Assembly (NCBI RefSeq): GCF_007678455.1
Contig: NZ_VEEP01000008.1
Coordinates: forward strand, 97,942-161,941
Reading direction: 5' to 3'
Source: Cytobacillus oceanisediminis 2691
GTDB lineage: Bacteria; Bacillota; Bacilli; Bacillales; Cytobacillaceae
DNA length: 64,000 nt
Below are positions 6,611 through 43,507 of this stretch, piece by piece. The stretch's first letter is position 1. The number at the start of each line of letters is the position of its first letter. Below the pieces are notes generated by a model. That model had not been told where the DNA came from. It made no database searches and saw nothing but the letters and a program-made list of their open reading frames with translations. Both the position numbers and the translations under genes were made by a program.

Positions 6611-7810
6611 ATGGTAATTGGATGGATGATATTTTGGATAATAGCCGGGATTGCACTGTGGGTCACAGCGGACTTCTTTCTTGGCAGGAAGCAGCATCTT
6701 GCAAATGCAAAAAAGTACGCTTTTCCAGAAAGGTATAGTGATCTGGAAATATTCGCAAAGGGACCAGAATTGTTCGAGGATTTATTTTCTGAAATTAAAA
6801 AGGCCAGACAGCACATCCATATTTTATTTTATATCATCAAAGATGATAAACTCAGCCACGAGTTCGTCACTTTATTGAAGGAAAAGGCACAGGAGGGAGT
6901 TGAGGTTCGGCTTCTTGTAGATTGGATCGGAAGCAACTTGAAACGGAAGACGATCCAGTCCCTGAAAGCAGCGGGAGTGCAGTTCGCTTATACCCATATT
7001 CCGAAGCCCCCCTTCCTGTTCTATTCATCCCAGGTCCGCAACCATCGCAAGATTACGGTTATTGACGGACAAATCGGTTACCTTGGCGGCTTTAATATTG
7101 GTGATGAATATAATGACAAGAATCCAAAGCTTTCACCTTGGCGGGATTATCATTTGAAATTAACTGGTGAAGGGATTGTTGACTTGCAGAAGGAATTTTT
7201 ACGTGACTGGCAATGTGCAAGCAAGGTGAACCTTCTCCAGAACAAAGCGTACTTTCCTGAGTTGCAAAAGGGATCGATTCGCCAGCAGTTCGTCCCAACC
7301 GAAGGTGATTCACTCGAAGACTTAATCGCCACATTAATCAGCGAAGCAAAGAAATCCATCATCATCGGCACACCATATTTCATTCCAAGCAAAGAGGTAT
7401 TTGAGCAATTAAATGCTGCGATTTCCCGGGGAGTGTCCGTTACGGTCCTTGTCCCATATAAGTCCGATCATATTCTCGTAAAAGAAGCATCGTACAGGTA
7501 TTTACGTTCCCTCCTCAAGGATGGAGCCGATGTATATCAATATTTGAAGGGTTTTTATCATGCCAAAGTCGTGATGATCGATGACAATATTTGTGATATC
7601 GGAACAGCAAATTTTGATCAACGAAGCATGTTTTTAAATTATGAATTGAATTGCTTAGTTTATGACCCTTCTTTTATTAAAAAAGTGAAGCATATTCTCA
7701 CTGAAGACATGTTGGATTCTCATAAAGCTTCACTTGCTGACTTCAGCCGCGCTAACCTGTTTTTATCATTCAAAGAAACAGCCGCAAGGACGATTTCATT
7801 TTTCCTATAG
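6611..7810 (+). CDS. ywjE: Cardiolipin synthase-like phospholipase D family protein
   Basis: A 399-residue membrane protein with an N-terminal hydrophobic segment (residues 3-22) and two HKD motifs: HRKITVIDG near residue 142 and HAKVVMIDD near residue 316. Each is followed by the usual glycine-rich stretch (GGFNIGDEY and GTANFDQRS). This is the duplicated catalytic fold that condenses phosphatidylglycerol into cardiolipin. It is shorter than the main ClsA type, as in B. subtilis YwjE, and has the same neighbours (ywjF, uvsE). Its TAG stop overlaps the first bases of a MITE-like element. Confidence 0.9.
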   Translation: MVIGWMIFWIIAGIALWVTADFFLGRKQHLANAKKYAFPERYSDLEIFAKGPELFEDLFSEIKKARQHIHILFYIIKDDKLSHEFVTLLKEKAQEGVEVRLLVDWIGSNLKRKTIQSLKAAGVQFAYTHIPKPPFLFYSSQVRNHRKITVIDGQIGYLGGFNIGDEYNDKNPKLSPWRDYHLKLTGEGIVDLQKEFLRDWQCASKVNLLQNKAYFPELQKGSIRQQFVPTEGDSLEDLIATLISEAKKSIIIGTPYFIPSKEVFEQLNAAISRGVSVTVLVPYKSDHILVKEASYRYLRSLLKDGADVYQYLKGFYHAKVVMIDDNICDIGTANFDQRSMFLNYELNCLVYDPSFIKKVKHILTEDMLDSHKASLADFSRANLFLSFKETAARTISFFL

Positions 7811-17917: not shown

Positions 17918-18430
17918 CTACTCTGCAGATAAATCGGTCTTCAACTTCTCTTCAGACCGCTCCCACATTCCAGGGTCATGGTTCTTCAGGAAGTCTGCGA
18001 GAATTTTCTTGGATTTTTCATCCATATGGTCGACGATGATATGGCGCTTGATCGACTTGTCAAGACGGTTCACATGCTCCGGAAGCGATTTATAACCGCG
18101 GCGGATTTCCCGGTTGACGGTCATTTCACAGGCAGTGACGCCAGCGTAATATGGCCCTTCTTCCTTCCTGTCAATTGTCACCCAGACAACCCAGTATAGC
18201 TTGGCATCCGGCACTTCATTGCGGTCAGGAAGGAACTTGATGCCTTTTTCAACAGCACTGCGCGCGTGCATCGCTCCCACTTCTACAGCTGCTTCCCCCG
18301 CATCAACATCAATGATGACCGGTGATACATTATCAAGTGTAAGGACGCCTTTACCAAAACCCTTATGGCCATCCATAGGGTCATTTTTTATAATATTGAA
18401 GCCAATATTCTTTCCCTTTTTTTCTTCCAT
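17918..18430 (-). CDS. ywhD: YwhD family protein
   Basis: A 170-residue soluble protein of unknown function conserved in Bacillales. It starts MEEKKGKNIGFNIIKNDPMD and includes VIIDVDAGEAAVEVGAMHAR and the run YWVVWVTIDRKEEGPYYAGV. A perfect AGGAGGT site precedes the ATG. It lies 12 nt after the M50 protease gene ywhC on the same strand, so the two are cotranscribed, as in B. subtilis. Confidence 0.9.
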   Translation of the reverse strand: MEEKKGKNIGFNIIKNDPMDGHKGFGKGVLTLDNVSPVIIDVDAGEAAVEVGAMHARSAVEKGIKFLPDRNEVPDAKLYWVVWVTIDRKEEGPYYAGVTACEMTVNREIRRGYKSLPEHVNRLDKSIKRHIIVDHMDEKSKKILADFLKNHDPGMWERSEEKLKTDLSAE

Positions 18431-31257: not shown

Positions 31258-32277
31258 TTAGCCAAAGAATCTCTGGTAGATGCTGCGAGCCTGCGCCAGA
31301 TCCTTCGTTCCATGGATCAATGCACGCCCGTCCTGGAAAATGACCATCCTGTTATCATCCATTTCAACAGATACCAGATAAGGGTTTCCTTTTACCTGAT
31401 AACCCAAATCCCTCATTTTTTCAGCCGTCTCCTGGAGGTTAAGCTGCTGCTGTTTCGGCGGCCTGATCTGTACGGTATCACGGCCGCACAGGACAGTCGT
31501 TTTGGTCATATTTTCAACATCCAAATACGGATATTCCGGATTGTCGCCGCATGAGAGACAGCCAGGGTCCTTCGCTTTTGACATTTTCATGCTTGTATAC
31601 TGATTCCGCCACAGATCAAAGCTGACAAAAGAAGTTCTGACCGCATCCCAGTCTTCCACAAGGATCTTCAGTGCTTCGGCACCCTGGTGGGCAATGACCA
31701 TCTGTACCGCAGGCCCGATGATTCCGCCGGTATCGCAGGTCAGCCCCTGCAGCGGCACCGTCTTCAGCAAACAGTTCAGACATGGTGTTTTTCCAGGAAT
31801 AATGGAGAAACTCATGCCAAAGCTGGCAACGCAGGCACCATATATCCACGGAATCTGGTACTTCTGCGAAATATCATTAATGGCCATCCTTGTTTCAAAA
31901 TTATCGGTAGCATCGATAATCAAATCGACGCCATCAACAAGCTCAGCCAGTTTTTCGGGAGTGGCATCCGCAATCAATGCGGTGATTTCAACGTCAGAAT
32001 TGATCGCCTTCAATCTTTTTTCAGCCGCTGCAGCCTTTGGAAGCTTCTCAGCGACATCCTCTTCAGTATATAATTGCTGTCTTTGCAGGTTGCTTGCTTC
32101 GACATAATCCCGGTCGACAATCGTCAGACGGCCGATACCTGCTCTAACCAGCAGCTCGGCATTCCCTGAACCAAGTGCACCTGCGCCAATCATCAGGACA
32201 TGCTTGCTGCGGATTTTGTCCTGGCCTCCCTTGCCTATTTGAGGAAACAGCGTCTGGCGTGAATATCTTTCTGACAT
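31258..32277 (-). CDS. moeB: Molybdopterin-synthase adenylyltransferase (MoeB/ThiF family)
   Basis: A 339-residue E1-like enzyme that adenylates the C-terminal Gly-Gly of MoaD with ATP. Nucleotide-binding motif MIGAGALGSGNAELL (29-43), catalytic region DRDYVEASNLQRQQLY, DATDNFETR, and two zinc CxxC pairs (PCLNCLL and CLSCGDNPEY). No rhodanese domain. The last gene of the formate dehydrogenase/cofactor operon, 85 nt after moaD, whose product is its substrate. A ThiF role with ThiS is possible from sequence, but the context favours MoeB. Confidence 0.92.
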   Translation of the reverse strand: MSERYSRQTLFPQIGKGGQDKIRSKHVLMIGAGALGSGNAELLVRAGIGRLTIVDRDYVEASNLQRQQLYTEEDVAEKLPKAAAAEKRLKAINSDVEITALIADATPEKLAELVDGVDLIIDATDNFETRMAINDISQKYQIPWIYGACVASFGMSFSIIPGKTPCLNCLLKTVPLQGLTCDTGGIIGPAVQMVIAHQGAEALKILVEDWDAVRTSFVSFDLWRNQYTSMKMSKAKDPGCLSCGDNPEYPYLDVENMTKTTVLCGRDTVQIRPPKQQQLNLQETAEKMRDLGYQVKGNPYLVSVEMDDNRMVIFQDGRALIHGTKDLAQARSIYQRFFG

Positions 32278-32362: not shown

Positions 32363-32596
32363 TCAACCGCCGGAAACAGGCGGTATGAAGGCAATTGTGT
32401 CTCCTTCTTTAATGACTTCATCATTAGATGAAAATTCTTCATTGATCGCTGTCATTGAAGTATCAAGCTTTTGGACACCATATTTTTCTGCGACTATTTG
32501 CTTCAGTTCGGCAACTGTCTTGCCTGCTGCTTCGATTTCGACTGATTCATGGCCTGCTTCGTCACGCAGGTGGGCAAAAAATAATATTTTATTCAT
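32363..32596 (-). CDS. moaD: Molybdopterin synthase sulfur-carrier subunit
   Basis: A 77-residue ubiquitin-like protein ending in FIPPVSGG; the terminal Gly-Gly is thiocarboxylated and donates sulfur to precursor Z. It starts MNKILFFAHLRDEAG. The start overlaps the 3' end of moaE by 8 nt, so the two synthase subunits are translationally coupled. Confidence 0.95.
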   Translation of the reverse strand: MNKILFFAHLRDEAGHESVEIEAAGKTVAELKQIVAEKYGVQKLDTSMTAINEEFSSNDEVIKEGDTIAFIPPVSGG

Positions 32597-33053
32597 TGAG
32601 ATCCTTCTCCTCCGGTTTCCCTGTCGGATATGGGACAGTTTCTAGTTGGTTGCCAATCCATTCTTCCCCGTCTTCCCAATGCTCTTTCTTCCAGATTGGG
32701 ACGATTTCCTTGATGCGCTCGATCGCATAACGATTGGCTTCATATGCATCGTTGCGGTGAGGTGTGGAAACGGCGATCACGACAGCAATATCCGTGATGT
32801 CGAGCTTGCCGACCCGATGGGTGATCGCGACCTGCGCGCCATCCCAGCGTTCCTGGATTTCCGTGCCAATCTGCTCAAGCTTTTTGACAGCCATCGGCTC
32901 ATAAGCTTCATATATAAGATAAAGGGTTTTCTTTCCCTTCGTCAATTCACGGACAGTGCCAATGAATGTCGTGATTGCCCCTGCTTCACGCTGGACCACT
33001 TTATCAATGACAGATTGAACGTTGATTGGATCTTTCGCTATTTCATAATTCAT
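32589..33053 (-). CDS. moaE: Molybdopterin synthase catalytic subunit
   Basis: A 154-residue catalytic subunit converting cyclic pyranopterin monophosphate to molybdopterin. Conserved pieces: GAITTFIGTVRELTKGKK, YLIYEAYEPMA, ITHRVGKLDITDIAVVIAVS, and the catalytic region VPIWKKEHWEDG. The frame is open to 33107, but the ATG at 33053 has GAGGTGA at proper spacing and gives the usual length. The 288-nt gap upstream of it contains a MITE-like element. Confidence 0.95.
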   Translation of the reverse strand: MNYEIAKDPINVQSVIDKVVQREAGAITTFIGTVRELTKGKKTLYLIYEAYEPMAVKKLEQIGTEIQERWDGAQVAITHRVGKLDITDIAVVIAVSTPHRNDAYEANRYAIERIKEIVPIWKKEHWEDGEEWIGNQLETVPYPTGKPEEKDLNE

Positions 33054-33101
33054 CAAAATCACCTCAATAAACTGATCCGGATCAGGATTTAATATGTTTA
33101 T

Positions 33102-33149
33102 GGACACTTTTTCCGGGTTCTGGCTCCGTTTTGTCCATTAGAGTGTCCC
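33102..33149. repeat. Single unit of the 44951-type 52-bp repeat
   Basis: GGACACTTTTT at 33102 and GTCCATTAGAG at 33133 have the same 31-bp offset as in the array at 44951-45190. Located in the cofactor operon between moaE and the MITE-like element. Confidence 0.75.
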
Positions 33150-33150
33150 T

Positions 33151-33347
33151 TTAAAAATGGCTCTGTTAAACAAGACTGTTGATTTTCGTTCCAGGCGCAT
33201 CGCTTTCCGCGGGGCTGGCGCTGAGCCTCCTCGTCGCTCTGCTCCTGCGGGGTCTCACCTGACCAGCTGCGCCCGCAGGAGTCTACGCGCCTTCCACTAC
33301 AATCAACAGGTGTATAAACATCATTGGGCTTTAACAGAGCCTTAAAA
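33151..33347. mobile_element. MITE-like family A, copy 2, inside the cofactor operon
   Basis: The 134-bp core (33176-33309) is nearly identical to 13413-13546. Here outer inverted repeats are clear: GGCTCTGTTAAA (33159-33170) and TTTAACAGAGCC (33330-33341). The TAA stop of the moeA gene at 33342 lies directly at the outer edge (TTTTTAAGGCTC on the minus strand). No gene inside. Confidence 0.85.
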
Positions 33348-35261
33348 ATAAACAGGCTCAGGATTCTCAACAACTGCGTATCCGCCAATTTTGTCGACTT
33401 CGGCTTTGAAGACCTGTGATTGGATCACTGACCTTAACCATATACCCTTTTCGCTTTCGAAGAATGCCTTTGTCATCAGCAAATCGTAGCTTTCGTCAGC
33501 GACCGGGATGAAGTCGAGCCCCATTGCCCTGGCAGCCGGGAATATGCCGAGTCCGGCCGCATTGTCGTTCCCCTTCACTTCAGCAGCGACGCTCAAATGT
33601 GAGAACATTTCACGGTCATAGCCGTTGACCTGTTCTGCGTCAAGGCCGGCATCTTTTAACATTAAATCAAACAGGATCCGTGTACCGGCGCCTTTTTGCC
33701 TGTTGGCATAATCTGCGCCCTTCACAGCGATGTCGCTGACATTTTCGATTCCGAGCGGATTGCCTTTTGGCAGCATCCAGCCCTGGGTTCTTTTCAAGAA
33801 AGGATAAAGGACTGCGTCTTGCCCGGCAAGGAATTTCCTTACGTAGGTAACATTATATTCTTTCGTCTCCGGGTCAAGCAAATGAATGCCCGCTACATGG
33901 GCTTCCCCTTTTCTGATTGCCATCAAACCGGCCATGCTGCCAACATGGGAAGAAACAATTTTCATGTCGGTGCGCTGATTTTTGAGCTGGGAGGACAAAA
34001 GGTCAATCGTCAGGTCATGGCTGCCGCTGAAGACGATCGCGTTCTTGATTTCTTCAACCGGTCTGTATAGCTCGACCATGACGGTATCTCCCTGTTCATA
34101 TCCTAACTCCTCCGGCGGAACAACGAGCAAGCCGTCCGCACGCACCAGTGACATCGTGACCCCCGCCGCGCGTGTCAGCGGATTGGCGACAAATTGTCCA
34201 TCCACATAGCCGATATTCATTCGGACAAAGTCCTCCGCCCCCATTGTGGAGACGATCCTGCGGCCAAGCTTCACTTCTAGTTTTGGCCTTTCGGGTTCTG
34301 GTATCCCCAGATACTTGCAAACGAGCGGCCTGACGAACCACTCAAGCGCCATGTAGGCCGACACTGGATATCCAGGCACGCCTACTACCACTTTATCTTT
34401 AATTTTCCCAAGGATGACTGGCTTACCCGGCCTTGTCGCGACACCATGGGTAAAAACAGTGCCTAGCTCCTCAAGGATGTGTACGGTATAATCTTTTGAA
34501 CCTGCGGAAGAACCAGCATTAATCACGACAATATCAGATGTTTCTACCGCGTTCAGCAATGCTTCCCTGATTTTTTCCGGTTCATCCTTCACGATCGGAT
34601 GCAAATAAGGCTTGCCGCCCCAATCTTCTACATATGCGCTAAAAACGGTGCCATTGAACTCGATGATCCTTCCTGAAGACAGCGACGCATCTGCGCTGAC
34701 CAGTTCATTTCCTGTCGGGATGATCGTTACCAGCGGTTTCTTCATAACGCATACTTCGGTCACCTGTGCTGCAAGGAGTGCTCCGAGGTCGGCAGGACGC
34801 AGCTGATGCCCCTGCGTGAACAACATCTCCTCCTGGACGATATCCTCACCGATCGGGCGGATATGCTGCCAGGGAGTTGCCGGCTCGATGATTTCGATGG
34901 TCTCATCGTCAATGACGTGAATGTTTTCGACCATAATGACGGCATTGAACTCCTGAGGGATCGCATTGCCTGTATCAACGTATTTAAACTGCTCATCCTT
35001 TTTTAAATGGAGCGGGCGCTGCTCATGTGCTTCATAAGTATCCTCAGCGTTGACGGCAACTCCATCCATTGCGGATGCATGGTAAAAAGGCATCGACACA
35101 TTGGCGAAAACAGGTTCAGCAGTAATTCGGCCAAGGGCAGCGGCAGCCGGAATCCATTCTTTTTCCTGAGGCAGGTCGAACGCAGCCAGCACTTCATCTC
35201 TGGCTTGCACGCGCGGCTTGTCTTCAAGATAAATCTTTCGGTTATAACGTATTTGGTCCAT
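33342..35261 (-). CDS. moeA: MoeA with C-terminal periplasmic-binding-like domain
   Basis: 639 residues. The first about 410 residues are a MoeA molybdenum insertase (FYHASAMDGVAVNAEDTY, DIVVINAGSSAGSKDY, GVPGYPVSAYMALEWF). From about 420 (AIVFSGSHDLTIDLLSSQL) follows a type-2 periplasmic-binding-protein-like domain, known from MoeA fusions in Firmicutes, which may sense molybdate or a cofactor. It follows the single-domain moeA by 13 nt. The start at 35261 has a GGGGGAG site. Having two MoeA proteins in one operon suggests division of labour, which is inference. Confidence 0.9.
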   Translation of the reverse strand: MDQIRYNRKIYLEDKPRVQARDEVLAAFDLPQEKEWIPAAAALGRITAEPVFANVSMPFYHASAMDGVAVNAEDTYEAHEQRPLHLKKDEQFKYVDTGNAIPQEFNAVIMVENIHVIDDETIEIIEPATPWQHIRPIGEDIVQEEMLFTQGHQLRPADLGALLAAQVTEVCVMKKPLVTIIPTGNELVSADASLSSGRIIEFNGTVFSAYVEDWGGKPYLHPIVKDEPEKIREALLNAVETSDIVVINAGSSAGSKDYTVHILEELGTVFTHGVATRPGKPVILGKIKDKVVVGVPGYPVSAYMALEWFVRPLVCKYLGIPEPERPKLEVKLGRRIVSTMGAEDFVRMNIGYVDGQFVANPLTRAAGVTMSLVRADGLLVVPPEELGYEQGDTVMVELYRPVEEIKNAIVFSGSHDLTIDLLSSQLKNQRTDMKIVSSHVGSMAGLMAIRKGEAHVAGIHLLDPETKEYNVTYVRKFLAGQDAVLYPFLKRTQGWMLPKGNPLGIENVSDIAVKGADYANRQKGAGTRILFDLMLKDAGLDAEQVNGYDREMFSHLSVAAEVKGNDNAAGLGIFPAARAMGLDFIPVADESYDLLMTKAFFESEKGIWLRSVIQSQVFKAEVDKIGGYAVVENPEPVYF

Positions 35262-35274
35262 GATGCTGCTCCCC

Positions 35275-36507
35275 CTATCTCGTCAAAATGACTGGAACGT
35301 ATTCGCCTTGAGAAATCCCCTCTTTTTCGGAAACAATCTCCACGATTCCATCGCTTTTTACCAAAGTTGTGATCAGGCCTGATTTGCCGATGATCGGCTC
35401 GGCCCACCATTCTCCATCTCTTTCCTCAAGTCTCACCCTGATATAGTCAGATCGCCCTGGTGAGGAGGCAATATTTTTAACAATCCGGGCAAAAATCCGC
35501 TCGGGCTTCTGTTCGTATTTTTCACCCTTCAGCTTCCTGAAGACCTGTTCGCCAAACAGCTTGAAGATGATCATTGCCGATGCTGGATGCCCCGGCAGTC
35601 CGATGACTGGTTTTCCATCCGCCACCGCTAGAATCGTCGGCTTGCCTGGCTTAATCGAGATTCCGTGGACAAATACGCCTGGATCTCCAAGTGACTGGAT
35701 GACCTCGGTCGTGTAATCCTTCGTGCCGACAGAACTTCCCCCTGATAAAATAAGGCAGTCCGCCTGTTCATACAATTCGCGGGCCTTGCTTGCGAACTCC
35801 TGATAGTCATCGCGGGTGATGCCGCCATATATGACCTCAATGTCCCATTCATTGGCCAGGCCTTTGACAGTCAGGTAATTGATATCGCGGATTTGACCGG
35901 TTTCAAGTGTTTTCGTTTCATAAGGAACGATTTCGTCCCCTGAAGAAAGGTAAGCAGCTTTCAGCTTGCGGTAGACTTTCACCTCGGAAACGCCTAATGC
36001 CGCCAGGGCTCCGAGCTCCTGTGGCCGCAATTTTGTCCCTTGTGTCAACAGCACCTCGCCTGAGCGGATATCTTCCCCTGATCGGATGACGTTTTCGCCT
36101 GGGGCAATCTGCTTGTAAGTATTCAACAGCCCGCCGATTTCCTCGCAATGCTCGATCATCAGGACGCTGTCGCTGCCCGGAGGAAGCATTCCGCCCGTCG
36201 GGACATAGATTGCTTCTCCCCTGCCCACCGGTTTTACTGCTTCTTCGCCCATATGGACCTCACCGGCGACATTCAGGAATCCAGGCATGGATTCAGAAGA
36301 TCCATAGGTGTCCCTGGCGATGACGGCATAACCATCAACGGTCGATCGATCAAAGCCCGGCACATTTTCTTCCGCTCTGATGTCCTCGGCCAGGATGAAA
36401 TGAAGTGCCTCATCAAGCGTGCGAACCTCGGTTTCTTTGATCTTGCTGATTTTCTCATCAATTAACGCAAAGGTATCTTCAACCGTTTTCACTTTGAAAA
36501 ATTGCAT
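35275..36507 (-). CDS. moeA: Molybdopterin molybdenumtransferase MoeA
   Basis: A 410-residue MoeA that inserts molybdate into adenylylated molybdopterin. Motifs: VPGFDRSTVDGYAVIARDTY, VPTGGMLPPGSDSVLMIEHC, CLILSGGSSVGTKDYTTEV, GLPGHPASAMIIFKLFGE. The frame is open to 36576, but I chose the ATG at 36507 (MQFFKVKTVED), after an AAGGAAG site, because the longer form overlaps mobA and its extra residues look foreign to the family. Confidence 0.95.
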   Translation of the reverse strand: MQFFKVKTVEDTFALIDEKISKIKETEVRTLDEALHFILAEDIRAEENVPGFDRSTVDGYAVIARDTYGSSESMPGFLNVAGEVHMGEEAVKPVGRGEAIYVPTGGMLPPGSDSVLMIEHCEEIGGLLNTYKQIAPGENVIRSGEDIRSGEVLLTQGTKLRPQELGALAALGVSEVKVYRKLKAAYLSSGDEIVPYETKTLETGQIRDINYLTVKGLANEWDIEVIYGGITRDDYQEFASKARELYEQADCLILSGGSSVGTKDYTTEVIQSLGDPGVFVHGISIKPGKPTILAVADGKPVIGLPGHPASAMIIFKLFGEQVFRKLKGEKYEQKPERIFARIVKNIASSPGRSDYIRVRLEERDGEWWAEPIIGKSGLITTLVKSDGIVEIVSEKEGISQGEYVPVILTR

Positions 36508-36538
36508 GCTGCCTATCTTCCTTTCTGGCACCTGAAAA

Positions 36539-37138
36539 CTATTCCCCGGATTCCGTCCACTTCTTCGCATTTTCATATTCTTCGGGATGGTTCATATTGA
36601 AAAAGACGCGTTCAAGATTGTTTCCGCAATAGAGTTGCAAATCTGACTCATCGAGGTATCGGACATTCAGTTTTTCAAGCATATGCCTGATCCTTAACGT
36701 TCCGTCCTCAATGCATTTCACCGCTTCGCGGGCCACGCGTTTTTGGTACGCCGCAAAAAGCGGATGCTTCCGCCCATCACTGACGGGCACGACTGCATCG
36801 TGGTGCTTGAGGGCTTTCACAAGGTTCTCGGCAAGCTCTGCGGATACAAATGGCATATCACAGGCAACGATGAAATTCTCTTCGTAATCTGATGCCTCGA
36901 GCCCCGCATGGATTCCCGCCAGCGGTCCAGAACCCGGATATTGGTCTGTCACACTTTTGATATTTAAAAATTGATAGGTTTCAGGATCATTTGTTACTAG
37001 AATTATATCATCAAAAACGTGCTGTAACTCATCCTTAATTCTCTCAATATTCGTTTTTTCGTGAAATTTCAGGAGAGCTTTATTCGTTCCCATCCTGCTA
37101 GATTTGCCGCCTGCTAAAATAATCGCTCCGGCTTTCAT
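36539..37138 (-). CDS. mobA: Molybdenum cofactor guanylyltransferase MobA
   Basis: A 199-residue nucleotidyltransferase that attaches GMP to Mo-molybdopterin, making the bis-MGD cofactor used by formate dehydrogenases. N-terminal signature AIILAGGKSSRMGTNKALL and the central VACDMPFVSAELAENL with the metal-binding Asp. Start chosen at the ATG 37138 (MKAGAIILAGG), next to AAGGTG. Its presence in the fdh operon fits the bis-MGD need of FdnG. Confidence 0.95.
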   Translation of the reverse strand: MKAGAIILAGGKSSRMGTNKALLKFHEKTNIERIKDELQHVFDDIILVTNDPETYQFLNIKSVTDQYPGSGPLAGIHAGLEASDYEENFIVACDMPFVSAELAENLVKALKHHDAVVPVSDGRKHPLFAAYQKRVAREAVKCIEDGTLRIRHMLEKLNVRYLDESDLQLYCGNNLERVFFNMNHPEEYENAKKWTESGE

Positions 37139-37154
37139 CCCACAGCACCTTCTT

Positions 37155-37964
37155 TTAATTTGTCTGTTTGGTTTCCCCAGCGGCTTTGTAGCCATTTTCC
37201 TGTGCAACAAAATCGAGGTGGATTGTATTCAAGTCTAGCATTGCCGGTGTCGGCTTCACAATATATTGTCTTGTATCGATTACTTTCGTGTAGCCCTTGC
37301 ATTCCTCACAAACCTGGATCTGGGCAGCGGACTCACCCTCGATGGTCAGGAACTGGACTGTTTCATGATCTTCATTGCCACAATGCGAGCATGTAATGCG
37401 TTTATCATGCCAGTGGGCCAGACAGCGAGGGCAATGCAATACCTTTTTTCCTCCGTCTTCCAGCTGAGCAAGGCGGACTGGTTCACCGCAGACAGGACAT
37501 CCGGCGCCGTGAACAGCATATTGGATTTCATCCTGGACTTTTTCAGCGGTCAGCTGCAAATAGGGACGCAGCACGGTTTCGGCGATAAATTGGGGAATCC
37601 ACGCATCGACACCCTGCTCTTCTGCAAAGCTGGCAAAATAAATATGGTTAAAAGCAAAAGCCTCATCAATCCAGCGTGTTGCTGTCTCTTCATCTAATAG
37701 TCTCTTGATTGATTCCATTGTTTTTTCGAGCTCTGGTTGATACTTCGCTAAAAGTTCACCTATATCCTCTATCCACTGTAAGAATAGGGGAATATCAAAA
37801 TCAATGGCCGTCAATGCAGCGACAGGCACCCCTGTTTCCATGGCCGCTTTGTCAAGCTTAGGCTCGATACGGTCAGGGTTGAGTGATGTTTTCCATTGTT
37901 CCTGCAACGTGATAATATCTTTCTGCAGTTTCTGGTACTCTTTTGAGACAACGGACTTTTTCAT
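37155..37964 (-). CDS. fdhE: Formate dehydrogenase accessory protein FdhE
   Basis: A 269-residue maturation factor for respiratory formate dehydrogenase. The C-terminal half has four cysteine pairs: CPVCGEP, CPRCLAHW, CSHCGNED and CEECKGY, a rubredoxin-like metal-binding layout seen in FdhE. It lies between the structural genes and mobA. FdhE is typical of the exported FdnGHI type, in agreement with the Tat signal on FdnG. ATG at 37964 after an AGAGG site. Confidence 0.92.
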   Translation of the reverse strand: MKKSVVSKEYQKLQKDIITLQEQWKTSLNPDRIEPKLDKAAMETGVPVAALTAIDFDIPLFLQWIEDIGELLAKYQPELEKTMESIKRLLDEETATRWIDEAFAFNHIYFASFAEEQGVDAWIPQFIAETVLRPYLQLTAEKVQDEIQYAVHGAGCPVCGEPVRLAQLEDGGKKVLHCPRCLAHWHDKRITCSHCGNEDHETVQFLTIEGESAAQIQVCEECKGYTKVIDTRQYIVKPTPAMLDLNTIHLDFVAQENGYKAAGETKQTN

Positions 37965-38062: not shown

Positions 38063-38770
38063 TTAAGCGCCTTTTTTCTTGTTCTTGCCTTTGTCAAGAT
38101 CAGGGAAGTTGCCTTTCTTGACTTCTTCTTCATACCATTCTGTATAGTGGTCTTTTGCCCACTCTGCCGGAACCTCACCTGTAATGACGCCCGTATATCC
38201 TGGACGTGAATTTTTGTGGATGACACTCAGATAGATGTGGCCGACCACGACTGCGATCGCAAGACCGAAGCCAACGTTATGGGCGACATATGCCCACTGA
38301 ACCATTGCTTTCGGGAACAAGGCCGGGAACCACATCGGGAATCCCGAACCGATGATCAAAATTGCTGTGAAGATCTGGATGATCGAGTTGATTTTTTCAC
38401 CCGCGTTGAAGAATGTCTGTTTTACATGCTTGAACTTAAAGCCGAACAGTTCTTTAACGAACTCCGTGAAAAACTGGATATCCCTCTTTTTCCAGGTAAC
38501 GAGTTCCTTGCCCCAGCGAAGCAGGCCTTTTGGATCCATGATCATCCAGATGAAAGTCGGCGTGACGAACGCGACAGCGAAAATCCTATGGAGCAATCTG
38601 GCACCTTCTGGTCCGCCAAGCACAGGGTATAGCCAGTCAAACCATTCTGTATACATCGGCAAGGCCGTGATATACAGGGCGAAGAATGAAATGGCGTTCA
38701 CAGCATGCGCTAAGACAAAGCCTTTTGAAAAACGTTTGACCTTCACACCTGAGTACTGCGTTTTACTCAT
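38063..38770 (-). CDS. fdnI: Formate dehydrogenase, cytochrome b gamma subunit
   Basis: A 235-residue membrane subunit with four hydrophobic segments that anchors the enzyme and passes electrons to menaquinone through b hemes. Recognisable pieces are VKRFSKGFVLAHAVNAISFF (first helix with its His), LLHRIFAVAFV, FFNAGEKINSIIQIF, and HNVGFGLAIAVVVGHIYLSV. Start at ATG 38770 with GGAGGTG 6 nt upstream; it overlaps fdnH by 8 nt. Confidence 0.93.
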   Translation of the reverse strand: MSKTQYSGVKVKRFSKGFVLAHAVNAISFFALYITALPMYTEWFDWLYPVLGGPEGARLLHRIFAVAFVTPTFIWMIMDPKGLLRWGKELVTWKKRDIQFFTEFVKELFGFKFKHVKQTFFNAGEKINSIIQIFTAILIIGSGFPMWFPALFPKAMVQWAYVAHNVGFGLAIAVVVGHIYLSVIHKNSRPGYTGVITGEVPAEWAKDHYTEWYEEEVKKGNFPDLDKGKNKKKGA

Positions 38771-39596
38771 GGCTGCCACCTCCATCTTCTTCATGGCCTT
38801 TGTCCTCTTTATTGAACAGCTTATTGCTGACGAATGCGCCAACAAGTGCCATGCTTGTCGCTCCAAGCATCATTTTGCCGATTGGCTGTGCGTAATCCTT
38901 CCAGACTACCGCTGAAGTTGGAACCTTAGGCTTTTCAGGCAATCCGTAAACGGAAGGCTTTTCAGCTAGGACATAAATCGTATGTGTACCGCCGACTCCT
39001 TCTGGGTTGTAGATCATGGCGTTAGGGAAACGGCCCTTGATTTCGCTCAGGCGCTTTTCAGCTTTCTTGAGCATTTCATCTTTTGTGCCGAACTCCATTG
39101 CGTCTGTATGGCAGGTAGTGACACAAGCAGGCTGCATGCCTTCCTCAAGGCGGTCAACACACATCGTGCATTTCTGGGCCTTCTTGTATTCCTTGCCATT
39201 CTTGTCTTTGTATGTTGCCAGCTGGACGACATCGAATGGGCAGTTCTGTACACAGTAGCCGCAGCCAACGCATTTATCCGTGTTCACATCGACCGTGCCG
39301 AATTCTGTGTAGTGCATAGCATCCTCCGGGCACACCTTAACGCAGGCAGCTTCCGTACAATGGAAACAGGATGAATGACGGAAAAGGTATTCAAGATTTC
39401 CTTTTCCGTTTTCGTGTTCAATGAATGACAGCACGTTCCAGGTATTTGCCGTTACATTCGCATGTGATTGGACGCTGCCCTGGAAAGCTTCCGGCTCAGC
39501 CGGAAGGTCATTCCAGTTTTTGCAGGCGACCATACATGCGCGGCAGCCATCACACTTGGTCACGTCAACAAATTTTACATATTCAGCCTTCGCCAT
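38763..39596 (-). CDS. fdnH: Formate dehydrogenase iron-sulfur beta subunit
   Basis: A 277-residue electron-transfer subunit with four [4Fe-4S] motifs: CDGCRACMVACKNW, CFHCTEAACVKVCPEDA, CVGCGYCVQNCPFDV and CTMCVDRLEEGMQPACVTTC. A C-terminal hydrophobic helix near residue 250 (GKMMLGATSMALVGAFVSN) anchors it. Its ATG overlaps the fdnG stop by one base (TAATG), so translation is coupled. Matches the FdnH/FdoH plan of E. coli. Confidence 0.95.
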   Translation of the reverse strand: MAKAEYVKFVDVTKCDGCRACMVACKNWNDLPAEPEAFQGSVQSHANVTANTWNVLSFIEHENGKGNLEYLFRHSSCFHCTEAACVKVCPEDAMHYTEFGTVDVNTDKCVGCGYCVQNCPFDVVQLATYKDKNGKEYKKAQKCTMCVDRLEEGMQPACVTTCHTDAMEFGTKDEMLKKAEKRLSEIKGRFPNAMIYNPEGVGGTHTIYVLAEKPSVYGLPEKPKVPTSAVVWKDYAQPIGKMMLGATSMALVGAFVSNKLFNKEDKGHEEDGGGSHE

Positions 39597-42577
39597 TAGT
39601 CAGCCCTCCTTACGTCGCAGAGGAATGCCTTATATTCAGGAATCATCGTGTTGGCGTCCCCGATATGAGGTGTTAAGCGGTTTGCTGTATCCCCTGTTGC
39701 ATATCCTTTATATCCGAAGTGCCAAGGCATGCCAATCTGGTGGACTTTCTTGCCGTTTACAGTGTGCGGCTTGAAGCGTTTCGTCACCATCGCATAGGCT
39801 TTAACCTCGCCGCGAGCTGATGTCACGATAACCTCGTCCTTGTTCTTGATGCCTTTTTCCTTCGCTAGCTCTTCACTCATCTCGATGTACATATGGCCCA
39901 TCAATTCTGACAGCCATTGCTGGTTCCTTGTCATCGAGCCTGATTGCCAGTGTTCACTTACACGATACGTTGTCGCCACGATCGGGTACTGCTTCTTCGT
40001 GCCTTTAAGGTTGAAGTCGCCATCCCAGACCTTGATGGTCGGGTTGAATTCCTGGCTGGAGAACGCATTCGGCACCGGACTTTCAAACGGCTCATAGTGT
40101 TCTGGGAACGGTCCGTCATTGAGCGTTGGAGCAAACATGCCGCCGACGCCATCCTTCAGCATGATGAATGGATTCGTGCCTCCCTTGTCAGAAGGAGCGA
40201 CCACTGCCTTGAAGTCAGGAATATCATGTCCAGTCCATTTTTTAGCCAGGCCATCCCACCAGATGACTGCCTTATCCTTGTTCCATGGCTTGCCGGCTGG
40301 ATCTGCAGATGCGCGATTATAAAGAATCCGACGGTTCATAGGCCATGCATAAGACCAGTTCAGGAAATTGCCCATGCCATTATCCTTGTTGTCACGGCGC
40401 TTGGACAGGTTGCCTTCTTCCGGATAGAAGCCTGAATAAATCCAGTTTCCGGAGCATGTGGACCCGTCATCAGCAAGCGAACCGAAGTTCTCGACCTGTT
40501 TGCCTGTCTTAGTGTAATAACCGTTGATTTCACGGGCGACTAGATCGAATTCTGGATGATCATGTTCACCGTAATTCCAGTACAGTGCATTGATAGCTTT
40601 TGCAGCAGGTGAGCTTTCATTTTTGTACATGCCTTTGATTCTTTGCATCAGCATATGGATGATTTCCATGTCTGCCTTTGATTCGCCTTTAGGCTCAATT
40701 GCCTTCCAGCGGTACTGCATCCAGCGTCCGCTGTTCGAAACCGTTCCTTCTTTCTCGTATGAGGATGCGGCCGGAAGCAGGAATACCTCTGTGTTGATTT
40801 TTGATGGATCGCTGCCAGCTTCTTTTTGCCAGAATGCTGAAGTTTCTGTCTCCCAAAGGTCAATTGCAACCAGCCAGTCAAGGTTGCTGAGTGCTTCTTT
40901 TTCCTTGCCTGCATTCGGGCCGCCGACTACAGGATTGGTTCCAAACAGGAATGCGCCATCCAATTCGCCTTTATACATCGCATTGAAAAGGGCGATATGG
41001 GAGTAATTCTTGTTTCCTTTAGGAAGATATTGATAGCAGAACTCATTGTCCTTTGTCGCGTTAGGGCCATACCATGCCTTGAGAAGGCTGACGACGAATT
41101 TTGGCTTATTGCTCCAATATCCAGCAGCAGGCGTTTCTTTTTCAAGATAGGCCTTAAGAGTTGCATGTTCAGGAAGCTCTTTCGGCGCTCCCAGGTATCC
41201 TGGAAGATCCCCGAACAAAAGACCGAAGTCTGTTGAGCCTTGTACGTTTGATTCACCGCGAAGGGCGTTAACTCCGCCGCCAGGCATACCGATGTTGCCA
41301 AGAAGCAGCTGAAGCATGGCATATGAGCGGACGTTCTGGGTACCGACCGTATGCTGGGTTGTACCCATCGCATAAAGGATCGTACCTGCTTTTCCAGGCT
41401 TTCCTGTTGAACAGAATGATTCAGCCACTTTCAGATAGTCTTCCTTAGGTGTTCCTGTCACTGTTGACACAGTGTCAACATCATAACGAGAATAATGCTT
41501 TTTCATTAACTGGAACACGCTGCGAGGATGCTGTAGTGTTTCATCCTTGACCGGGGTTCCGTCTTCTTGTGTTTCGAAAGACCAGCTAGCCTTGTCATAT
41601 GAACGGGTTTTTGCATCATATCCGCTGAACAGGCCATCCTTGAATTCGAAGCCTTCCTTGACGATGAAGGAGGCATTTGTATATTTAGCAACATACTCTT
41701 TGTGGAAAAGATTCTTTTCAATCGCATAATTGATCAATCCGCCGATAAAAGGAATATCGGTTCCAGAACGGAGCGGAGCATAAGTGTCAGCCTGTGACGA
41801 CGTTCTTGTGAAACGCGGGTCGACTGATAGTATTTTCCCTCCGTTTTCCCTTGCCTTTAAAAGCCATCTAAAGCTGACTGGATGGTTTTCAGCAGGGTTC
41901 GCGCCAATAATCAGCGCACAATCGGTATGCTGCAGATCATTCCAGTGATTTGTCATTGCTCCACGACCAAATGAAGGTGCCAGACCGGCAACCGTTGAAC
42001 TGTGTCATATTCGTGCCTGGTGCTCTAAATAGGTGACACCAAGCCCTCTCATCATTTTCGCGAGCAAATAAGTTTCTTCATTATCAAGTGCCGCGCCGCC
42101 TAGGCTGGCGATCGCTTCTGTTTTATTGACAAAAATTCCGTTTGTTTTTTCAACGAATGTCTTGTCACGTGTTTCCTTCACGCGCTTGGCAATGGTATCA
42201 AGCATCCATCCCCAATCTTTTTCTTCCCACTTATCGCTTCCAGGAGCCCGGTAACGAGGCTTCAGGACGCGTTTTTCTGAGGTGAATAATTGTCTGATCG
42301 TTGTCCCTTTGCTGCACAGGCTTCCTTCGTTGATGGGATGGTCCGGATCCCCTTCCGTATATACCACATCATTGTTTTTCGTATGGACTAAAATTCCGCA
42401 GCCCACAGCGCAGTATGGACAAATGGTTGGTGTAACAGTAGCTTTGGCAATCTTGAATTCTTTTGTTTTCGCATGGACTTCTTTTTCGTTGAAGCCAAGT
42501 TCAACAATCGCCAGGGTTGCCGCAGTGGCTCCTGACAGCTTCAAAAACTGCCTGCGATTCAGGTTGATTTCAACCAT
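39596..42577 (-). CDS. fdnG: Selenocysteine-containing formate dehydrogenase catalytic subunit (UGA read as Sec191)
   Basis: A 993-residue molybdopterin enzyme oxidising formate to CO2 outside the membrane. A Tat signal (NRRQFLKLSG) opens the protein. The [4Fe-4S] cluster has C53, C56, C60 (CPYCAVGC) and C88. The frame is interrupted only by UGA at 42007-42005, codon 191, in the context HQARI-Sec-HSSTVAG, continuing APSFGRGAMTNHW as in E. coli FdnG around its selenocysteine. A SECIS-like hairpin follows the UGA. Read as a stop the gene would look like two pieces (42577-42005 and 41956-39596), but length and homology are continuous. AAGGAGAGAG precedes the start. Confidence 0.95.
41976..42007 (-). 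promoter_or_regulatory. Bacterial SECIS element with its UGA codon
   Basis: On the minus strand UGA (42007-42005) is followed 11 nt later by GGUUGCCGGUCUGGCACC (41993-41976): stem GGU-GCC with GGC-ACC, one bulged U, apical loop GGUCU. E. coli fdhF has the same bulged U and GGUCU loop for SelB binding. Confidence 0.92.
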
Positions 42578-42631: not shown

Positions 42632-43426
42632 TTAATTCAATACTTGCTGGGCTTCCCCCCTTTCAAGCAGGTCATCCGCAGCAGCGGGCGGGGTTAAATC
42701 ATTGTTGATCCTCCCGGCCGATGTATAAATCGTCGCCATTTTCCCGCGAAGGTAGCCGACAACCTCAATATTGAGGAATCTTGCCAGCTGTACCGCCTGC
42801 TTGGTGGCAGCTGTACGGGAACCGATGACGGCAAAGCCAAATTTTGCTGCTTTTGAGAGCATTTCATATGAAACCCTGCCGGTCGTCAGCAGGACGAGCC
42901 GGTCGGGCTGCAAACGCTTTCGAATTGCGTGTCCGATAATCTTATCGACAGCATTATGCCTGCCGATGTCTTCCCGGACCTTGATACTGCCATCCTCCAG
43001 GATGATACATGCGCCATGCATGCCGCCTGTTTCCAGGTACAATGGCGAATTTTGCGCGAATTCCGCCCGTTTTTTCAATAAATAGGTCAACGAATAGGTT
43101 TCATCGGAATTCACTTTATTGAACTTTTTGACATCCGTCATTGAAAAGAAGGTCACTCCCCGGCCGCAGCCCGCTGTATAGTGCTTCTTTTTCGAAAACA
43201 TCTGTTCAGGATCGAAGGAATTGCATAACGACACATTCAATGTGCCAGTCTTTTCACTAAAATCAACACTGACGACATCCTCCGGGCCATCGATCAACCC
43301 TTCTGAGAAAAGGTAGCCGTATACCCAATCTTCGAGATCCTGATTGGTCAGCTGGAAAACCGCAATTTCATATCCATTCAGCTTCAGGCTGATTGGATAT
43401 TCTTCAGGACAGCCTTTCTTTGTCAT
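42632..43426 (-). CDS. fdhD: Formate dehydrogenase sulfurtransferase FdhD
   Basis: A 264-residue protein that passes sulfur from cysteine desulfurase to the molybdenum cofactor of formate dehydrogenase. Conserved pieces: GYLFSEGLI, HYTAGCGRG (with C87), SPLYLETGGMHGACI, VREDIGRHNAVDKIIGHA, LTTGRVSYEM and VIGSRTAAT. Only one cysteine is present where E. coli FdhD has a CxxC. ATG 43426 with AGGGGTG is preferred to GTG 43435. First gene of the long operon; an FNR-like box lies upstream. Confidence 0.93.
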   Translation of the reverse strand: MTKKGCPEEYPISLKLNGYEIAVFQLTNQDLEDWVYGYLFSEGLIDGPEDVVSVDFSEKTGTLNVSLCNSFDPEQMFSKKKHYTAGCGRGVTFFSMTDVKKFNKVNSDETYSLTYLLKKRAEFAQNSPLYLETGGMHGACIILEDGSIKVREDIGRHNAVDKIIGHAIRKRLQPDRLVLLTTGRVSYEMLSKAAKFGFAVIGSRTAATKQAVQLARFLNIEVVGYLRGKMATIYTSAGRINNDLTPPAAADDLLERGEAQQVLN

Positions 43427-43507
43427 GTTCTTCACCCCTTATCTGTTCGGTCATCTCTGGGTCCGGTTCAGCAATCGATATCTCCCAGTTCATTGGAATT
43501 GAAAGAC

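Follow-up and report, generated by a model that had tools for sequence, protein, structure and literature searches.

Is the TGA at codon 191 of the formate dehydrogenase gene fdnG of Cytobacillus oceanisediminis 2691 the stop codon of a decaying gene, or is it read as selenocysteine (Sec)? The gene lies in a 64,000-nucleotide (nt) stretch of contig NZ_VEEP01000008.1 (the window) and would encode the alpha (catalytic, molybdopterin) subunit of formate dehydrogenase-N. A preliminary description of this DNA had placed the gene at 39596..42577 and had read the apparent stop as a Sec site; the coordinates are correct, the strand (unstated there) is minus, and the Sec assignment is supported by the reading frame, a Sec insertion sequence (SECIS) element, a set of sel genes, and the match to Escherichia coli. 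In our view, the locus very probably encodes a respiratory formate dehydrogenase of the FdnGHI type, anchored in the membrane and probably exported, with Sec at position 191 of its catalytic subunit.

With the TGA (42005..42007, minus strand) read as U, the minus strand from 42577 to 39596 can be read without interruption as 993 residues, the only U being residue 191, in the context HQARI-U-HSSTVAG; the plus-strand frame across the same interval contains many stops. The product matches TIGR01553 at 1319 bits (curated cut-off, 814.2) over residues 6-990, i.e., as a full-length family member. Its best match in the PDB is 1h0h_A, a formate dehydrogenase alpha subunit (1069 bits), in which a non-standard residue (X) aligns with residue 191, followed by 1kqf_A, a nitrate-inducible formate dehydrogenase (986.3 bits, query residues 5-992). 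The active-site position is occupied by a Sec-or-Cys codon, TGA at 191 in this gene and TGA or TGC in its relatives. Near the N terminus, the sequence RRQFLK is a twin-arginine-like motif. Under translation table 11, a mechanical listing of open reading frames (ORFs) splits fdnG into ORFs of 190 and 786 amino acids. The expectation that standard gene callers would report fragments thus holds for the mechanical list, but not for the RefSeq annotation in the one case examined, E. coli fdnG, which is a single coding sequence with no pseudogene flag, despite an in-frame TGA at the matching place.

Scanning of the whole window against Rfam with cmscan at the gathering threshold returned a single match, to SECIS_3 (RF01989), at 42010-41952 on the minus strand (E = 1.1e-12), where it covers the TGA and extends over the codons that follow. 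Its score, 64.2 bits, exceeds the gathering score of 63, and the element qualifies as a member under the covariance model. Its stem-loop reads GGU-U-GCC(GGUCU)GGC-ACC; this sequence and the SECIS_3 match bear out the hairpin with a bulged U and a GGUCU loop proposed in the preliminary description. Across the host's own genome, where 150 of 596 first-look candidates were scored, SECIS_3 matched once at E ≤ 0.001, at fdnG; among 14 control genomes, it matched in E. coli only, the fdnG element of which scores 85 bits.

The genes for Sec decoding that had been expected elsewhere in the genome, and on which the preliminary description had made its Sec assignment depend, were all found, each above its cut-off: (i) selA on contig C22, at 568.4 bits (cut-off, 267.9); (ii) selB on contig C477, at 361.7 bits (cut-off, 242.25), its product having the C-terminal winged-helix domains SelB-wing_2 and SelB-wing_3; (iii) selD at C22:193363-194355 (L019, L194), at 397.3 bits (cut-off, 125), adjoining selA on the opposite strand in divergent orientation; and (iv) tRNA-Sec (selC) in two copies on contig C332, at 56.1 and 50.9 bits (cut-off, 47; 150 of 405 first-look candidates scored), identified by ARAGORN as tRNA-SeC with anticodon tca. 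The selD frame itself contains one in-frame TGA, in the context AG-U-GCK, and SelD is predicted to be a selenoprotein in its own right; this context agrees with the UxxK motif that PMC9312934 gives for SelD. Cut-offs were also passed in the control genomes, by tRNA-Sec in five of the 14, SelB and SelD in two each, and SelA in one, with the SelB and SelD profiles matching all 14 at E ≤ 0.001. Because its cut-off is passed in five of 14 control genomes, some of which are not known to be Sec users, tRNA-Sec alone is weak evidence; the argument is carried by the full sel set together with the SECIS element and the conserved TGA.

Conservation of the TGA was followed across 110 loci, made up of the 30 best matches in the host's family and 80 kept of 550 from named genomes, the two sets overlapping. 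The equivalent of codon 191 is TGA in 109 of these loci and TGC in one (L136). Among the 95 distinct genes of the set, L136 included, codons 193-209 have the lowest synonymous diversity of 515 sliding windows (448 usable codon columns), and in 100,000 random column draws, no value as low as that of codons 192-208 (14 usable columns) was obtained. Codons 195 (ACG) and 198 (GGT) are invariant in all 95 genes, codon 197 is GCC in all 94 genes with Ala at that position, and codons 196 and 199 vary in one and two genes, respectively. Alignment of 63-nt segments, 59 of which were distinct, was made with the 58 containing TGA, L136 being left out; of the 348 cells of the six-pair apical helix, 99.1% are paired, a share that falls to 33.6-49.4% when the helix is slid by 1-3 columns. 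The frozen synonymous sites and the near-complete pairing indicate that the helix, with its bulged U and GGUCU or AGUCU loop, is kept by selection.

It is against this record that a nonsense mutation has to be weighed, i.e., that fdnG is a decaying pseudogene left as fragments of 190 and 786 amino acids. Pieces of exactly these lengths appear in the mechanical ORF list, and fdnG is matched only in pieces in four family genomes (G070, G089, G101, and G179). Yet decay does not accord with a TGA held at the same codon in all but one of the loci, a SECIS element embedded in frozen synonymous sites, and a complete sel set in the genome; on these grounds, we reject the pseudogene explanation and assign it a negligible probability. 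The piecewise matches in the four genomes, as an observation in their own right, suggest copies that are broken, split between contigs, or misassembled.

A small natural comparison is provided by genomes G184 and G006, each of which has a second fdnG copy with Cys (TGT and TGC, respectively) beside a copy with TGA. In the Cys copies (L190 on G184:C60 and L191 on G006:C159), the SECIS motif is lost and VPG replaces the VAG of the Sec copies; no SECIS match was found in either at E ≤ 0.01, in a search that matches L025, L149, L115, L164, and E. coli. By match position, L149 is the Sec copy of G184, and it still scores 62.8 bits for SECIS. In this comparison, the SECIS motif is kept with TGA and lost with Cys, and the Cys paralogues serve as a natural control for the factors that retain the element. 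The same comparison bears on whether the TGA is read through by some other route, be it a suppressor tRNA or reassignment to Trp or Cys, such that the residue is not Sec. We found no point in favour of such a route, which is contradicted by the SECIS element and by the presence of SelA, SelB, SelD, and tRNA-Sec, as well as by the Cys paralogues, in which the codon is TGT or TGC and no SECIS was detected. The remaining genes of the fdnG cluster match their families under table 11, on which basis general reassignment of TGA was rejected; altogether, we consider read-through by another route extremely improbable. Sec at codon 191 is most likely, as judged from the frame, the SECIS element, the sel set, and the conservation of TGA and SECIS.

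Among named genomes, the nearest fdnG (L162 aside) is that of Mesobacillus subterraneus, at 96%; the named genomes with relatives are mostly of Neobacillus, Bacillus, Mesobacillus, and Cytobacillus, with few others (e.g., Ammoniphilus, Evansella, and metagenome bins). The fdnG of L162 (JAGGQZ010000031.1), which is titled Chryseobacterium sp. ISL-80, is 99% identical to that of the window; the record seems to be mislabelled or to come from a mixed sample.

Upon reaching UGA 191, the ribosome would encounter SelB with Sec-tRNA(Sec), bound to the downstream SECIS hairpin, which would decode the UGA as Sec and prevent termination by release factor 2. The enzyme would be matured by FdhD, FdhE, and the products of the molybdopterin genes encoded in the same-strand cluster, and may then be exported, probably by the twin-arginine translocation (Tat) route in view of the RRQFLK motif. 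Electrons from formate would pass to an iron-sulfur subunit (FdnH-like), then to a cytochrome b (FdnI-like), and on to the quinone pool. The parts for decoding are there to be read in the DNA, namely a frame with one TGA, the SECIS element, the sel set, and conservation of TGA, SECIS, and gene order; Sec insertion itself, export, activity, the metal (Mo or W), and the route of electrons are what we infer from known families.

The predicted alpha-subunit gene lies within an fdhD-fdnGHI-fdhE-molybdopterin cluster, all on the minus strand. Directly upstream is fdhD (42632..43435), for the accessory sulfurtransferase (TIGR00129, 168.2 bits; cut-off, 140.9). Downstream are fdnH-like (38763..39596), for an iron-sulfur beta subunit (TIGR01582, 234 bits; cut-off, 334.7); fdnI-like (38063..38866), for a cytochrome b gamma subunit (TIGR01583, 90.1 bits; cut-off, 115.85), the true start of which probably lies within this ORF; and fdhE-like (37155..37964), for a formate dehydrogenase accessory protein (TIGR01562, 54.4 bits; cut-off, 187.65). 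The cluster continues with candidate genes for a MobA-like molybdenum cofactor guanylyltransferase (36539..37210) and a MoeA-like molybdopterin molybdotransferase (35275..36576), every match of both being under curated cut-offs; a molybdopterin biosynthesis protein of the PRK14498 type (33342..35261; NF011068, 720 bits; cut-off, 534); a MoaE-like molybdopterin synthase catalytic subunit (32589..33107), both matches of which are under curated cut-offs; and a MoeB/ThiF family adenylyltransferase (31258..32277; NF009123, 533.1 bits; cut-off, 510). For gene order, we counted the 70 named relatives (of 80) whose flanks were complete: downstream of fdnG, FdnH-like and FdhE-like proteins are encoded in 70/70 and FdnI-like proteins in 68/70, and fdhD stands upstream on the same strand in 67/70.

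Several observations weigh against this account. The SECIS element clears its gathering score by only 1.2 bits, and three Sec relatives score below 63 (L149, 62.8; L115, 57.0; L164, 40.6). The folding energy of the hairpin is unremarkable (z = 0.14), 99 of 200 shuffled sequences being at least as stable; the case for the hairpin is therefore made by the covariance model and by comparison. No compensatory changes were seen in the helix among the 58 Sec segments, and column shuffles reached the observed values in 500 of 500 trials; compensatory change is absent because the helix is nearly invariant, and covariation neither supports nor opposes it. Finally, the FdnH-, FdnI-, and FdhE-like proteins score under the NCBIfam equivalog cut-offs given above, and since those for FdnH and FdnI are not reached, the two subunits are called FdnH-like and FdnI-like only. 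The low scores of the beta and gamma subunits would also suit an enzyme that contains Sec but is tungsten-dependent or CO2-reducing, nearer to Desulfovibrio FdhAB than to the quinone-linked FdnGHI, as would the rank of 1h0h_A ahead of 1kqf_A among solved matches; 1h0h is the tungsten formate dehydrogenase from Desulfovibrio gigas, and 1kqf is the enzyme from E. coli. This possibility is difficult to reconcile with the gene for a cytochrome b-like gamma subunit downstream in nearly all of the named relatives, and with an alpha subunit that passes TIGR01553, the family of formate dehydrogenase-N alpha, by about 500 bits; we regard an FdhAB-like enzyme as unlikely.

Our preferred reading, a Sec-containing enzyme of the FdnGHI type, may be set beside the known systems. 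As in E. coli FdnGHI (PDB 1kqf), to which the alpha subunit is similar over almost its full length (query 5-992), the TGA stands at the matching place and genes of the beta and gamma types follow fdnG; the SECIS elements are identical at 46 of 59 nt, with the loop beginning at nucleotide 22 counted from the U of UGA. Unlike in E. coli, the loop is GGUCU and not AGUCU, the beta and gamma subunits score under curated cut-offs, and fdnG is clustered with fdhD, fdhE-like, and molybdopterin genes. The alpha subunit shares with 1h0h its highest PDB score and a Sec site opposite the X of the PDB sequence, but differs in the cytochrome b-like third subunit gene downstream. FdhA and Sec-containing SelD are the most widespread bacterial selenoproteins according to the parts consulted of Zhang 2006 (PMC1794560) and Peng 2016 (PMC5029168). 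Both are predicted here with no substantive difference, such that C. oceanisediminis 2691 is another genome with the same pair, and its fdnG belongs, as an unexceptional member, to the most widespread selenoprotein family of bacteria.

The two tRNA-Sec genes of the host raise a separate matter. Within L009 (C332:388000-407500), they lie at 7485-7580 and 18066-18161 on the same strand, 10,581 bp apart; they share 96 identical nt and flank a 10.6-kb island in which some genes are defence-like. The 98-nt tRNA-Sec stretches differ at position 2 only, which is G beside the original upstream flank and A in the island-side copy; as judged by eye, the A would spoil one acceptor pair. In a genome of the same species (G075), a single tRNA-Sec with G at position 2 stands between both flanks with no insert, i.e., as an empty site. 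Encoded in the insert of the host are a nuclease of the OLD family (PADLOC Old, 6.1e-62), a DitA-like protein (PADLOC, 1e-17; under the cut-off of Pfam DUF5677), and two IS110 transposases; further ORFs there gave no matches. Both genomes of the species also have, about 5.2 kb downstream of the tRNA, a 41-nt piece of the 3' end of tRNA-Sec (L009, 2277-2317, 95%; L184, 14827-14867), perhaps a relic of an older integration or attachment.

Such duplications recur in the host's family, for which we surveyed 193 genomes around Mesobacillus and Neobacillus, scoring 20 tRNA-Sec candidates per genome: 18 of them have at least two tRNA-Sec matches. Three further pairs enclose 16.4 kb with type II restriction-modification (G160), 19 kb with type I restriction (G036), and 13.4 kb with SIR2-type and LmuB-like proteins (G021). 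G160 and G036 each have a gene for a tyrosine integrase (Pfam PF00589) immediately downstream of one of their tRNA-Sec copies; relatives of this integrase were found neither in the G021 island nor in the insert of the host. In eight of 30 loci (L055-L084), tRNA-Sec is immediately followed, on the same strand, by a strong relative of this integrase (E ≤ 1e-65). Six of these eight were examined over up to 20 kb each; repeats of the tRNA 3' end, 64-90 nt long, were present in G085, G010, and G097, and none was found in G191, G027, and G019. Altogether, the attachment (att)-like repeats span 64 to 96 nt, and the cargo includes restriction-modification and Lamassu-like proteins (L185, L186, L187, L195, L197, and L200).

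The tRNA-Sec gene is thus a recurrent island site in the family. Tentatively, and with somewhat less than even confidence, we suggest that mobile islands, a number of which carry a tyrosine recombinase and cargo of the anti-phage type, repeatedly integrate at tRNA-Sec, and that the att block (64-96 nt in the cases examined) is long enough for integration to leave a second complete or near-complete tRNA-Sec gene. If so, Sec decoding would be physically linked to defence-island traffic, and islands could supply or edit the Sec tRNA of their host; the site may also interest researchers of mobile elements. Integration at this tRNA has precedents, selC of E. coli being an integration site of islands. 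Pf phages of Pseudomonas aeruginosa have a 27-bp att in tRNA-Sec, according to PMC7549136. One literature search returned no direct report of tRNA-Sec as an integration site in Bacillus, which is no proof of novelty.

How common, then, is the Sec trait among these relatives? Although the preliminary description considered Sec rare in Bacillaceae, this fails for the host's family, in which tRNA-Sec was detected at E ≤ 1e-8 in 172/193 genomes (all over the cut-off) and an FdnG homologue, full or broken, in 121/193; rarity is thereby rejected. With FdnG presence defined as a best E of at most 4e-290, and genomes sorted by hand into classes (one unlisted genome without tRNA-Sec being taken as G192 by exclusion), 120 genomes have both FdnG and tRNA-Sec, one has FdnG alone (G078, 66% complete), 52 have tRNA-Sec alone, and 20 have neither (Fisher p = 6e-9, not corrected for relatedness). 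SelD was found at E ≤ 1e-60 in 181/193, every match listed containing at least one TGA, counted irrespective of its position. It occurs in 10 of the 21 genomes without tRNA-Sec and was not found in G183 (80% complete), which has tRNA-Sec; SelD therefore does not track the Sec trait exactly. Nonetheless, a Sec-containing SelD could explain retention of the trait in genomes without FdnG, as proposed for keeping the trait in the portion consulted of Zhang 2006 (PMC1794560).

Literature searches found no report for selenocysteine together with Mesobacillus, and nothing related for selenocysteine or selenoprotein in Bacillaceae; in the main text of a paper on Bacillus azotoformans (PMC3475470), "formate dehydrogenase" occurs once and "seleno" nowhere. 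The expectation for this group of bacteria is thus corrected: the Sec trait is the norm in the surveyed family around Mesobacillus and Neobacillus, where annotation tools blind to Sec would produce false breaks in fdnG and selD.

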